A DNA stretch of 44,370 nt from a virus. The stretch covers positions 1-44,370 of IMG/VR virus record IMGVR_UViG_3300047550_004047. One strand, 5' to 3'. Position 1 is the first letter of the stretch, and each line of letters begins with the position of its first letter. The notes beneath the pieces are model-generated. The model had not been told where the DNA came from, searched no databases, and saw only the letters and a list, made by a program, of their open reading frames with translations. This document shows positions 32,836 through 42,963 of this stretch, one piece after another. A program made the position numbers and the translations under genes.

Positions 32836-34227
32836 ATGGCACTCAATCCATTCTTTTTACATGGTGCTCCAAGTGAACAGAGACTTGTTCAAGATACCAT
32901 AAACGAACTTATTCAAATGTCGGGAATTGAGGTCATTTATATCCCGAGGAAGTTTGTAAAAAAAGAAACGATTGTTAAAGAGATCACATCTTCCAAATTC
33001 GATGATAATTTTGCAATTGAGGCATATCTCAATAATGCCGAAGGTTATACCGGACAAGGAGATTTACTAACCAAATTTGGTGTGAGCCTTAAAGACGAGG
33101 TAAGTCTTCTCATATCAAGAGAAAGATTCGAAGATTTTATTGGTCCATTTTTAAATCGAAATGACCCAGAAATTGAACTAGCATCAAGACCAAGAGAAGG
33201 AGATCTAATATATTTCCCACTAGGTCAAAGAATTTTTGAAGTTAAGTATGTAGAGCACGAGAATCCTTTTTATCAACTCGGTAAACTCTTTGTATATGAA
33301 ATAAATTGTGAACTCTTCGAATATGAAGATGAAGTTATCGACACGACAGTAAGAGAAGTTGATGACTCAATAAAAGAAGAGGGTTATATTGTAACACTTG
33401 ATCTCATTGGAACCGGAAGTACGGCTAGTGCCTCTGCAGTAATAGGTGCAGGATACATTAGAGAAATATACTTAACTAATGATGGTTATGGCTATACAAG
33501 TCCTCCAATCATCACAATAACACCGGCTCCACCAGGAGGAGTATCTGCCAAGGCTTATGCGAAAATAATTTCGTCTGGTGGCGTTAGCTCCGTGAAACAA
33601 ATTATTCTAGAACATGCAGGTATTGGTTATACAATTGCACCTACCATTACAATCAGTGGAGGTGGTGGTACAGGAGCAGAGGCAACTTGTTCAATAGAAA
33701 CCATTAAAAATGGTATTGTTAAATTCGATATTTCAAATGGAGGTTCTGGATATACAAATAATCCGGGAGTTATAATTACCGGATCGGTCGGAACGGGTCA
33801 TACTGCTGTTGGAATTGCATCTGTTGGAACAAATAATCAGGTGATATCTATAGGTCTTTCCAATCCCGGTATTGGTTATACTCAAAGTCCAACGATAGCC
33901 ATCAATCCGCCATCAATAATCAGTGGAGTTGGCACATACGTCTATAATGAGATTGTCGTTGGCTCACAATCCAATACAAATGCCCGAGTAAGGGCTTGGG
34001 ATTATAACTCTAAGATATTAAAGGTTACAAATATCAATGGTGGAACAGAAGGTCAAGGCTTCTATCCGGGAGAAATTCTTGTCGGAACGGCATCATCTGC
34101 AATGTATGCCATATCAAACAGCGATGAATGGGATTTATATGATAAATATGGTGATAATCTGATAATTCAAGAAGAGGCGGATCAGATTATAGAACAGTCA
34201 AAATCAAATCCCTTTGGCATCTTCTAA
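32836..34227 (+). CDS. gp14: Neck protein gp14 with repeat insert
   Basis: A 463-aa protein, much longer than T4 gp14 (256 aa). N-terminal 'GAPSEQRLVQDTINELIQMS', 'VIYIPRK', and 'RPREGDLIYFPLGQRIFEVK' with 'ENPFYQLGKLFVYEINCELF' match gp14. After residue about 180 comes a roughly 180-residue insert of four or more copies of the 'G-x-G-Y-T-x-x-P-x-I-x-I' module, the same type found in the baseplate giants. The C-terminal end 'DKYGDNLIIQEEADQIIEQS', 'NPFGIF' is gp14-like again. Its stop overlaps the gp15 start (TAATG). Confidence 0.88.
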   Translation: MALNPFFLHGAPSEQRLVQDTINELIQMSGIEVIYIPRKFVKKETIVKEITSSKFDDNFAIEAYLNNAEGYTGQGDLLTKFGVSLKDEVSLLISRERFEDFIGPFLNRNDPEIELASRPREGDLIYFPLGQRIFEVKYVEHENPFYQLGKLFVYEINCELFEYEDEVIDTTVREVDDSIKEEGYIVTLDLIGTGSTASASAVIGAGYIREIYLTNDGYGYTSPPIITITPAPPGGVSAKAYAKIISSGGVSSVKQIILEHAGIGYTIAPTITISGGGGTGAEATCSIETIKNGIVKFDISNGGSGYTNNPGVIITGSVGTGHTAVGIASVGTNNQVISIGLSNPGIGYTQSPTIAINPPSIISGVGTYVYNEIVVGSQSNTNARVRAWDYNSKILKVTNINGGTEGQGFYPGEILVGTASSAMYAISNSDEWDLYDKYGDNLIIQEEADQIIEQSKSNPFGIF

Positions 34228-38889: not shown

Positions 38890-41800
38890 ATGGCAATTGA
38901 AGATATTAGACTGAAAGCCGGTGATGCCTATCTATCTAATCCCAATCTAAAGAGGGCAAATACCACAATTCAGTGGACCGAAGAACAGATCATTGAGTTT
39001 CTTAAGTGTAAACAAGATCCAGTTTATTTTGCCAGGAATTATATCAAGATCGTCAACGTTGATGACGGTCTTGTGGGTTTTGATATGTGGCCGTTCCAAG
39101 AGAAGCTCATTAGGAACTTTCATGATCATAGGTTTAATATCGCCAAGATGCCTCGTCAATGTGGTAAAAAATTTTCCTTAGATACAAAAATACCCACTCC
39201 AAGCGGTTGGACCACAGTTGGTGATGTAAAAATTGGAGATAAAATCTTTGGTCGTGATGGAAAAGTTACAAATGTTATTGCCAAATCGATTATTCATGAG
39301 ATTGATACTTATGTAATAGAATTTGATAATGGTCAAAAAGTAAAAGCATGTAGTGAACATGAATGGGTCGTATCTCATTCAGACTGGAGACATAAGGAGA
39401 GGGTATTAAAAACAAAAGATATTCTCAAAAAAATGGAGAGTCTCAAAAATGTATCTAAGCCATCTTCTGTTTACATTAATGTTACAGAGGCAATCGAAAT
39501 GCCTCATGCTGAATTACCAATTGATCCTTATACCTTAGGTGTATGGTTAGGTGATGGAGCTAGATGTAATGGTGAAATTGTCGGCAATCTTGAAGATATA
39601 GAACATATTTCAAATAATATACCATTAGTAACCAAGAATAAACGCTATATTAAATCTAGTAATAATGCATGGTCTTATGGATTTGAAACTTTAAAAGAAT
39701 CCATATATGATTTGAAATTAAATGTACAAAAACATATTCCTGACATATACTTAAGGGCATCAATAGAACAAAGACTCGAACTTCTTCGGGGCCTTATGGA
39801 TACAGATGGAGGCGTAAGACCAAATGGGGGCTGCGAATTTTATCAAAAAGAAGGGGTATTACTCGATCAAGTTAGAGAATTGATTTCATCACTTGGAATA
39901 AAGTCTAGAATACGATATAAAAAAGTGAAGGGTTATGATGTAAATTATGGAACCATTAGATTTTGTACAAACAAATATACAGTATTCAAATTACCTAGAA
40001 AGATTGAGAGACAACTCAATAATAAAAATCATCCAAAAAATGAAAGACTTTATATTGTAAGTATTACAAAAGTTCCGACAGAACCGATGCAATGTATTTC
40101 TGTCGATAATGATGAACATTTATTTCTTTGTACAGAAACATTTATTCCAACACACAACTCCACAACAACAGTATCATTCCTTCTCCATTACATAATCTTC
40201 AATGATAACGTAAACATCGGCATTCTTGCAAACAAGGCAACAACTTCAAGAGAACTATTAAGCCGTCTTCAATTATCTTATGAGAATCTGCCAAAGTGGA
40301 TGCAACACGGCGTCATAGCCTGGAACAAGGGTTCCGTTGAACTAGAAAATGGTTCAAAAATTCTGGCGGCCTCCACCTCGGCATCGGCGGTTCGAGGAAT
40401 GTCATTCAATATCATTTTCTTGGACGAATTTGCCTTCGTTCCAAATCATATTGCCGACGATTTCTTTGCGTCCGTTTATCCGACCATTTCTTCGGGTAAG
40501 ACTACCAAGGTTATTGTGGTATCTTGTGTTACGGATGATACCTATGTTCTAACTCCAAAGGGCATTCGCGAAATGTCCGATTTTATTGATTATTCACAAG
40601 AAGAGAATCCCAACAAAGGCTATGAGGTCCCTGACTATCAGGTGTATGGTCACAAAGGACCCAAAGATGGCAATATTTTAGTTAATAGTGGTTATAATGA
40701 CACAAAAATCATCTACTCACCATCATCTTTTGTAGAATGTTCATTGAGACATCCATGGTTTGTTTGCGATAATGGTAATTATGATTGGAAGAAAACTTCC
40801 GATTTGACAGGAGATGAGTATATCGCAATTGAATATGGACATGATGTATGGGATAGTGATAATACACTACCAGAAATAGACTATCAAGATTTTAGAAAAA
40901 CTATCAAACAATATGATATAAAAGAAATAGATCCGGATTTTGCGTATTTTCTTGGACTGTATATTTCAGAAGGTTCTTCAAACTATAATCGTAATTCTAA
41001 AGGAGACATCAAATATAGAGGAATCACTTTAACTTGTGGTGATCCAATAGGTGATTTTTTAGACCGTTTAAATTTAACATATCGTTGTCGTGATGGATTA
41101 CATTATCATATTTCATCAACAGCACTATGCGAGGTGATGCAGAATCTTGGATTCGATTTGTCTAAAAGGGCAAGAGAAAAAGAGATTCCAAAAAAATTAT
41201 TCAGAATGTCCAGAGAAAATATAATAGCCCTAATTCAGGGTATTATGGATGGTGATGGCACATCACAAAAAAATAGAGGTACTGTTGCAATTACTCTCAC
41301 ATCCAAGAAACTTATAAAACAAATAAGAATCTTATTGAATAATTTTGGCATTCTAAGTCTTTATAATGAATCTATTGCCAAGCCCTCAAAGAAAGTTAAA
41401 GTATATTCTCAACAATATAGACTCGAACTTACTGGTGAAATGTCAAAAAAATATTATGATATAGTCGGTTTTAGATTTAATAGAAAACAAGTAAATGAAA
41501 AATACCTTCCGGAAAGATTCACAAGAAATAGGTATGATATAATACCGTATAGTAAAGATGTAATTTTTTCTATTAAAGAAACAAATCCTGACGACTATAA
41601 AAAAATTGTTGCCTCTGGAATACTAAAAAATAATCTCAGAAAGAATCAACATCTCAGTAGGCAATTTTTCTTAAGACACAAGGATTTTCTTTTGAGCCTT
41701 AATAATGAAACTATTAATAAATTATATGATTATGTTAGTGAGAATATTAAATGGGAAAAAATCACTAAGATACAAAGTTCAAAAAATAAGGTCTATGATT

Positions 41801-42963
41801 TCTCCTTGAAAGAAACTGGGGATAAATGGTGTCATAGCGTTCTATTCAATAATATCATCGGATCCAATACGCCTAAGGGTATGAACAAGTTCTACAGAAT
41901 GTGGCACGATGCCGAAAAAGGTCGAAATGATTTCGTACCAACAGAGGTTCACTGGTCGGATGTTCCGGGAAGAGATGAGGAATGGAAACGCCAGACAATT
42001 GCAAATACCAGTGAAGAACAGTTCAGGGTTGAGCACCTTTGCGAATTCCTTGGATCCGTTGGCACTCTAATCAATCCATCAAAACTCAAGAGTCTCGTAT
42101 ATGATGAACCCATAAAGAAATCCGATAATGGTCTTGATGTCTATGAGGAACCCATAGAAGACCACAATTATGTCATGACAGTCGATGTGGCCAGAGGTAC
42201 AGATAATGACTATTCGGCCTTTGTTGTTTTTGATATCACAAAGTTTCCTTATAAGGTTGTAGCCAAATATAGGAACAATCAGATCAAACCCATGTTATTT
42301 CCGAATATAATTGAAAAAGTCGGTAAGGCATATAATTATGCCTGGATTCTGGCGGAGATTAATGATATTGGAGATCAGGTTGCCGGTATTCTACACTATG
42401 ATCTCGAATATGATAACATTCTGATGTGCTCCATGAGAGGTCGCAATGGCCAATATGTGGGGACAGGATTTAGTGGAAAGAGATCTCAACTTGGCATGAG
42501 AATGACAGTTGGAACCAAGAAACTTGGATGCTCCAACCTGAGGCTATTAATCGAGGACGATAAACTACTCATCTCTGATTATGATATCATCTCAGAACTC
42601 ACAACCTTTATTCAAAAACACAACTCGTTCTCTGCAGAAGAAGGTTGTAATGATGACCTAACCATCTGTCTTGTAATCTTTGCCTGGCTTGTTGCCCAGG
42701 AATACTTCAAGGAGATGACGAACAATGATGTTCGTAAAAGAATCTATGAGGAAAATAAGAACCAAATTGAGCAAGATATGTCACCATTCGGGTTTATTTC
42801 CGATGGTGTGAGCGTCATGGAGGAGATCGTAGAAGAAAAAGAAACCGGAGATCGTTGGATTTTTGCCGGATCAAAAAAAGATAATCATGCTCTTGAGGTA
42901 TGGAATCTGGATGAATATGGTGATGTCTCAAATGAATGGAGTTATATGTGGGAGTATAAGTAA
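38890..42963 (+). CDS. gp17: Large terminase gp17 containing two inteins
   Basis: A 1357-aa precursor of the DNA-packaging motor. Removing two inteins (residues 94-423 and 546-993) leaves 579 aa, close to T4 gp17 (610 aa). Exteins: residues 1-93 with the N-terminal domain and the first part of Walker A 'PRQCGK'; 424-545 with the rest of the P-loop (STTTVSF), Walker B 'FNIIFLDEFAF' (506-516) and the end of motif III 'KVIVVS'; and 994-1357 with 'TPKGMNKFYRMWHDA', then the RNase H-like nuclease 'MTVDVARGTDNDYSAFVVFD' (catalytic Asp 1099). The frame is open throughout; there are no stops or frameshifts, so the protein should be functional after splicing. Confidence 0.93.
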   Translation: MAIEDIRLKAGDAYLSNPNLKRANTTIQWTEEQIIEFLKCKQDPVYFARNYIKIVNVDDGLVGFDMWPFQEKLIRNFHDHRFNIAKMPRQCGKKFSLDTKIPTPSGWTTVGDVKIGDKIFGRDGKVTNVIAKSIIHEIDTYVIEFDNGQKVKACSEHEWVVSHSDWRHKERVLKTKDILKKMESLKNVSKPSSVYINVTEAIEMPHAELPIDPYTLGVWLGDGARCNGEIVGNLEDIEHISNNIPLVTKNKRYIKSSNNAWSYGFETLKESIYDLKLNVQKHIPDIYLRASIEQRLELLRGLMDTDGGVRPNGGCEFYQKEGVLLDQVRELISSLGIKSRIRYKKVKGYDVNYGTIRFCTNKYTVFKLPRKIERQLNNKNHPKNERLYIVSITKVPTEPMQCISVDNDEHLFLCTETFIPTHNSTTTVSFLLHYIIFNDNVNIGILANKATTSRELLSRLQLSYENLPKWMQHGVIAWNKGSVELENGSKILAASTSASAVRGMSFNIIFLDEFAFVPNHIADDFFASVYPTISSGKTTKVIVVSCVTDDTYVLTPKGIREMSDFIDYSQEENPNKGYEVPDYQVYGHKGPKDGNILVNSGYNDTKIIYSPSSFVECSLRHPWFVCDNGNYDWKKTSDLTGDEYIAIEYGHDVWDSDNTLPEIDYQDFRKTIKQYDIKEIDPDFAYFLGLYISEGSSNYNRNSKGDIKYRGITLTCGDPIGDFLDRLNLTYRCRDGLHYHISSTALCEVMQNLGFDLSKRAREKEIPKKLFRMSRENIIALIQGIMDGDGTSQKNRGTVAITLTSKKLIKQIRILLNNFGILSLYNESIAKPSKKVKVYSQQYRLELTGEMSKKYYDIVGFRFNRKQVNEKYLPERFTRNRYDIIPYSKDVIFSIKETNPDDYKKIVASGILKNNLRKNQHLSRQFFLRHKDFLLSLNNETINKLYDYVSENIKWEKITKIQSSKNKVYDFSLKETGDKWCHSVLFNNIIGSNTPKGMNKFYRMWHDAEKGRNDFVPTEVHWSDVPGRDEEWKRQTIANTSEEQFRVEHLCEFLGSVGTLINPSKLKSLVYDEPIKKSDNGLDVYEEPIEDHNYVMTVDVARGTDNDYSAFVVFDITKFPYKVVAKYRNNQIKPMLFPNIIEKVGKAYNYAWILAEINDIGDQVAGILHYDLEYDNILMCSMRGRNGQYVGTGFSGKRSQLGMRMTVGTKKLGCSNLRLLIEDDKLLISDYDIISELTTFIQKHNSFSAEEGCNDDLTICLVIFAWLVAQEYFKEMTNNDVRKRIYEENKNQIEQDMSPFGFISDGVSVMEEIVEEKETGDRWIFAGSKKDNHALEVWNLDEYGDVSNEWSYMWEYK
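39169..40158 (+). other. Intein 1 of gp17: class 3-like, with LAGLIDADG endonuclease (330 aa)
   Basis: Inserted between Lys93 and Ser424 of the Walker A motif (CGK^STTT). It starts K-F-S-L-D-T-K-I-P-T-P-S-G-W: position 1 is Lys, not Cys or Ser. Block B is 'VKACSEHEWVV' with Trp159; block F is 'QCISVDNDEHLFL' with Cys402; block G is 'IPTHN' with Thr421, followed by +1 Ser. These Trp, Cys and Thr form the W-C-T signature of class 3 inteins, which use the internal Cys as first nucleophile. Two endonuclease motifs are present: 'YTLGVWLGDGAR' (214-225) and 'LLRGLMDTDGGVR' (298-310). Confidence 0.85.
40525..41868 (+). other. Intein 2 of gp17: LAGLIDADG-containing (448 aa)
   Basis: Inserted in ATPase motif III (VIVVS^TPKG). 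It begins CVTDDTYVLTPKGIREMSDF with Cys546 as nucleophile, block B 'FVECSLRHPWFV' (His621), endonuclease motifs 'YFLGLYISEGSS' (686-697) and 'ALIQGIMDGDGTS' (780-792), block F 'VYDFSLKETGDKWCHSVLF' and ends 'IIGSN' before +1 Thr994. The penultimate residue is Ser instead of the usual His, which tends to slow Asn cyclisation but is tolerated in some inteins. Its A+T-rich composition differs from the exteins. Confidence 0.85.

Follow-up and report, generated by a model that had tools for sequence, protein, structure and literature searches.

The window, by which we mean the whole stretch of DNA analysed, is an IMG/VR virus record of 44,370 bases that comes from a metagenome assembly. T4-type structural genes surround the TerL locus, in the order baseplate wedge, head closure (Hc2), tail sheath stabiliser, TerL and tail sheath. 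The TerL frame matches Pfam Terminase_6N and Terminase_6C, and its C part is 75% identical to the TerL of Synechococcus phage S-SRM01. The nearest TerLs and the gene neighbours agree in indicating a cyanophage gp17, an identification made in a preliminary description of the sequence and now well supported. As a separate observation, the neck protein (head closure Hc2, 32836-34224) carries an additional C-terminal part, from residue ~190 on, which matches tail-fibre, baseplate and virion-protein families.

Two inteins interrupt the TerL frame. The relevant features are as follows (a slash marks an insertion or splice junction):

38890 to 42963, + strand: TerL (gp17-like terminase large subunit) ORF, 1357 aa with two inteins and 579 aa without both; Pfam matches
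39169 to 40158, + strand: intein 1, assigned to class 3, 330 aa, ORF residues 94-423, within the Walker A loop PRQCGK/STTT
39169 to 39171, + strand: residue 1 of intein 1, Lys, no N-terminal nucleophile; Lys1 also in loci L013, L016 and L100
39349 to 39366, + strand: block B, C61-S-E-H64-E-W66, with His B:10 and Trp B:12 (W of WCT)
39514 to 39993, + strand: predicted LAGLIDADG homing endonuclease domain, from Pfam and fold match; outer limits approximate
40093 to 40095, + strand: Cys309, block F:4, predicted initiating nucleophile (C of WCT), present in 317/317 relatives
40150 to 40158, + strand: block G, Thr328-His329-Asn330 (T of WCT, penultimate His and predicted cyclising Asn)
40159 to 40161, + strand: +1 Ser, predicted C-extein nucleophile and Walker A Ser/Thr of GK[ST]
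40525 to 41868, + strand: intein 2, class 1-like, 448 aa, ORF residues 546-993, with C1 and LAGLIDADG, in the C-motif VIVVS/TPKG

Intein 1 lies between the Lys and the Ser of the Walker A loop and ends in THN/S. The preliminary description had placed an insert that begins with Lys between CGK and STTT, and its coordinates and residues are exact. The signature residues that it named in the ORF (Trp159, Cys402 and Thr421, with HN and the +1 Ser) were confirmed in the translation; the first three are W66, C309 and T328 of the intein, with codons at nt 39364, 40093 and 40150. Its figure of 579 aa for the spliced gp17 holds only when intein 2 (448 aa) is removed too, and not for removal of intein 1 alone. 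That the +1 Ser doubles as a Walker A residue agrees with the empty sites of relatives, which read PRQ.GK/[ST]T.

The insert also contains two endonuclease motifs, LGVWLGDG and LLRGLMDTDGG, with acids D129, D211 and D213. Pfam LAGLIDADG_3 (PF14528) matches it above its cutoff (E 1.6e-9), and among 82 same-site inteins D129 is kept in 79 and D211 in all. Both motifs and the catalytic acids being present, intein 1 is predicted to be of the LAGLIDADG homing endonuclease type. Together with the phmmer match to 6bs8 described below and a tblastn match to the TerL of phage B23 (E 2e-68), the Pfam match argues that the insert is not a product of chance.

Standard inteins begin with Cys or Ser. In a metagenome assembly, a Lys at residue 1 might thus conceal a class 1 intein in which a sequencing or assembly error had removed the Cys1 codon, an alternative raised in the preliminary description for the first codon. 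We consider it extremely improbable: the same Lys1 is found in L013, L016 and L100, sisters at the same site have Met, Gln or Ala and never Cys, and the Lys codon AAA needs more than one base change to become TGT or TGC. Furthermore, none of the residues that class 1 uses at position 1 (Cys, Ser or Thr) is present, and F:4 is Cys and not the Asp of class 1.

Class 3 inteins are defined by the absence of a Cys at residue 1 and by a Cys at F:4, mostly accompanied by Trp B:12 and Thr G:5 (PMC7891396, PMC5050341). Intein 1 has neither Cys nor Ser at residue 1, and possesses Cys F:4, Trp B:12 and Thr G:5. In phmmer searches, its best PDB match was the class 3 DnaBi1 intein of M. smegmatis (6bs8, E 1.1e-22), followed by class 3 MchDnaB1 (6rix and 6riy, E 5e-19 and 2e-18). 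The class 1 intein gp41-1 gave an E of only 0.05, and its engineered, WCT-grafted version gave 0.003. An AlphaFold2 model built from 96 aligned relatives had a mean pLDDT of 97.1 and a pTM of 0.94; an earlier model from 14 near relatives was poor (pLDDT 65) and was set aside. The modelled splicing domain matched 6bs8 with Z 21.2 (1.5 A over 126 of 127 residues, 38% identity), 6rix with Z 20.4 and class 1 gp41-1 with Z 18.1, while the whole modelled chain matched the intein-endonuclease PI-SceI with Z 26.

A tree of splicing domains, one of the checks suggested in the preliminary description, places intein 1 among class 3 and apart from class 1, including intein 2 of the same gene, although resolution inside class 3 is low and some long branches meet. 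A set of split class 1 inteins described below joins the class 3 side on a long branch, and its place is uncertain.

A class 2 route, in which the +1 residue attacks directly and not via a block F Cys, would likewise dispense with a nucleophile at residue 1 (PMC4031507). Every class 2 intein, however, is a KlbA orthologue that combines Cys+1 with Asp F:4 and Ser G:6 (PMC4031507), whereas intein 1 has Ser+1, Cys F:4 and His G:6, and the closest sequence and fold match of its splicing domain is class 3. A class 2 mechanism is therefore very improbable. Class 3 membership, as first proposed in the preliminary description, is supported by the sequence matches, by the tree, by a fold model of high confidence and by key residues that are invariant among relatives.

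Such invariance was examined in 317 distinct class 3 relatives obtained by scanning viral contigs and bacterial genomes, and from phage records; since they were recruited with class 3 queries, the set informs on constancy inside the group and not on separation from class 1. Used alone as the query, intein 1 gave no match in IMG/VR, and an alignment was required. Cys F:4, Thr G:5, His B:10 and Asn G:7 are invariant (317/317), and Trp B:12 is retained in 315. Residue 1 is free: Ala is the most common (191), followed by Gly (29), Pro (22), Met (15), Leu (11), Ser (10), Gln (9) and Glu (7), with four cases each of Lys, Arg, Cys and Asp, and rarer ones. The four inteins with Lys1 are those of the window, L013, L016 and L100, all in one clade. 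The rarity of Lys1 counts against the class 3 reading, and we know of no experimental test of a class 3 intein that begins with Lys.

Four class 3-like inteins (L089, L374, L398 and L331) show Cys at residue 1 in addition to the F:4 Cys, and L331 has Phe at B:12. They may be intermediates between classes.

Block B deserves separate consideration. In DnaBi1, every tested substitution of the redox residue Cys48 abolished splicing, and block B has the form D-x-x-H (PMC6195587). The equivalent of Cys48 in intein 1 is Thr47, and B:7, usually Asp in class 3, is Cys61 (C-S-E-H), a Cys that characterises the clade of the window. The preliminary description had considered that C-x-x-H fits class 3: the motif is indeed present, but it is a minority variant (56/317), and D-x-x-H is the usual form (203/317). 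Cys at the Cys48 position is missing in 137 of the 317 inteins. If this site is called Cys47 and the B:7 site Cys61, 177 inteins have Cys47 alone, 53 have Cys61 alone, 3 have both and 84 have neither. The last figure indicates that a Cys at one or other position is no general requirement. By a plain 2x2 count, about 32 inteins would be expected to have both. When the tree was taken into account, 13 supported independent pairs were available, with values of 4.7 for opposite and 0.5 for same direction (median p 0.125). The opposite direction thus prevails, with too few supported independent pairs for covariation to be more than suggestive. The Lys1/Cys61 clade provides a natural test of whether the role of DnaBi1 Cys48 can move.

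The lack of a Cys48 equivalent is also an argument for a different alternative, namely that intein 1 is a decayed, non-splicing element within a dead terminase gene. Two large inserts in a single essential gene might be viewed in the same light, and splicing is something that we only infer. Against decay, the frame of 1357 codons is open, the catalytic residues are all there, and both the splicing and the endonuclease domains appear to be under purifying selection: dN/dS against five relatives is 0.18-0.22, ratios that are rough given that dS exceeds 1 in these comparisons. In addition, the C-terminal part of TerL is 78% identical to intact TerLs, and since TerL is essential to a T4-type phage, an intein that no longer splices should be fatal to it. 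Decay seems very unlikely. The Walker A loop of this T4-type terminase is, very probably, occupied by a mobile intein of class 3 that carries a LAGLIDADG endonuclease.

Mobility was approached by a census of the same site in the 80 TerL loci closest to the TerL of the window, in which two rows reading SSIT were counted as empty sites. The P-loop was empty in 42 loci, contained a class 3 insert in 24 and a split class 1 intein in 4, and the remaining 10 loci end before the site; hence, 42 of the 70 readable sites are empty. Presence of an intein at the P-loop requires at least 12 changes on the TerL tree. Later scans raised the number of distinct same-site T4-type inserts to 82, including those of cyanophage B23 and Klebsiella phage RaK2; a search for this insertion site in other phage TerLs had been among the checks initially suggested. 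In 82/82 alleles, H-B:10, W-B:12, C-F:4, T-G:5, H-G:6 and N-G:7 are conserved, and residue 1 is never Cys. The family is big enough for testing the rules suggested by these data, with residue 1 free and W, C, T, H and N fixed. The G+C content is 32% in intein 1 and 41% in the extein. As read from the sequences, the empty sites, sporadic presence, G+C gap and dN/dS values form the pattern of a mobile, maintained intein.

Two groups of loci at the same site differ from this common type. In L013, L015 and L016, the class 3 intein is cut down to 282 aa and lacks the region of the first LAGLIDADG motif; the endonuclease is probably in decay, with the splicing residues kept. In L020, L037, L038 and L064, a split class 1 intein occupies the identical P-loop site. 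Its N half begins at PRQVGK/CFSINT, its C half ends in IVSHN/TTTVV, and a separate ORF between the halves is nuclease-like (DUF559 match, weak Vsr).

By the established class 3 route, splicing starts with an attack of the F:4 Cys on the N-terminal junction; the N-extein then passes to the +1 residue, and Asn cyclisation and an acyl shift form the peptide bond (PMC4031507, PMC5222942, PMC7891396). Applied to intein 1, after translation and folding, Cys309, placed by Trp66 and helped by His64 and Thr328, would attack the Lys93-Lys94 peptide bond, and the N-extein would be held at block F in a thioester. Transfer of the N-extein to the +1 Ser would follow (block G branch), Asn330 would cyclise with the aid of His329, and an O-to-N shift would restore PRQCGKSTTT. 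Before splicing, the packaging ATPase would be silent, as expected from the interruption of the P-loop and from the use of its Ser as splicing nucleophile. The endonuclease, in turn, is predicted to cleave terL alleles that lack the intein, at the conserved codons of the P-loop, with the intein being copied in. TerL of the window would thus be a natural case of a phage packaging motor expected to be on only after splicing through an internal Cys.

Phage class 3 inteins, TerL inteins, P-loop insertions and proteins with two inteins have all been published already (PMC5050341, PMC6195587, PMC7156551, PMC5259590). M. smegmatis DnaBi1 (6bs8) resembles intein 1 in its class 3 WCT residues, Hint fold and P-loop insertion, in which the Ser of the loop likewise serves as +1; the same ATPase, DnaB, also has a class 1 intein (DnaBi2) elsewhere (PMC6195587). 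Unlike intein 1, DnaBi1 lacks an endonuclease, being a mini-intein, has Ala as its first residue, carries D-x-x-H and the redox Cys48, and resides in a bacterial helicase and not in TerL. The TerL inserts of Synechococcus phage B23 (MN695335) and Klebsiella phage RaK2 (NC_019526) share with intein 1 the P-loop K/[ST] site, the WCT residues, LAGLIDADG and the absence of a nucleophile at residue 1. However, they begin with Ala, are 43% and 39% identical to intein 1, respectively, and belong to TerLs without a second intein; the B23 insert has D-x-x-H. Hint and LAGLIDADG had previously been noted in the RaK2/K64-1 TerL (PMC5259590).

Mycobacteriophage TerL is likewise an intein hot-spot. According to the accessible part of PMC5050341, TerL1-a lies between the P-loop Lys and Thr, TerL6-f is in the C-motif, as intein 2, and class 3 inteins are present; however, they are linked there to TerL1-c and -e and not to the P-loop a site, and the terminase families differ from that of the window. 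Microcystis phage Mic1 offers another cyanophage TerL with two inteins, the first of which is class 1 and occupies the same C-motif site as intein 2. Mic1 differs in lacking a class 3 P-loop intein, in its P22-like terminase cluster and in the position of its second intein, in the nuclease domain (PMC7156551).

Intein 2 has a non-canonical end, Gly-Ser-Asn/Thr. Its relatives at the C-motif site (L019, L021, L140 and L175) end in His-Gln/Thr and are about 34-37% identical. One of them, L140:2710-7125, is a single TerL with three inteins. The first is a mini class 3 intein at PRQ/CGK, which starts with Pro, ends in T-M-N and has +1 Cys, a residue that is rare among class 3 inteins (PMC5222942); the second, class 3 as well, lies three residues further, at CGK/S; the third is class 1, in the C-motif, and ends in His-Gln. 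No report of TerLs with three inteins was found in the open-licence literature, which is weak evidence of absence.

A broader proposal is that the P-loop K/S junction of T4-type terL is a shared niche, in which, among close phages, class 3 LAGLIDADG inteins alternate with split inteins of class 1, which differ in mechanism and come with a DUF559/Vsr-like nuclease gene of their own, and in which further inteins stack in the same protein, and that the clade of the window is class 3 with Lys1 and with a B:7 Cys replacing the DnaBi1-type Cys48. We put this forward tentatively, as a possibility that we would hesitate to call probable. No description of contiguous class 3 inteins alternating with split class 1 ones at one codon junction was found in the open-licence literature, which misses most subscription papers and is weak evidence on this point, and a literature search for AceL-TerL retrieved no paper. 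If the proposal is true, the clade of the window would represent an alternative active-site arrangement within class 3. The occurrence of class 3 and split class 1 inteins at one insertion site makes competition between intein types directly testable.

A last observation concerns L175:2731-5913, a TerL with class 3 and class 1 inteins. Further on, this locus shows an apparent N half of a split intein (QEFE/SFLPETLINIMVNGIVVETTIGELYNELS), followed by a stop.
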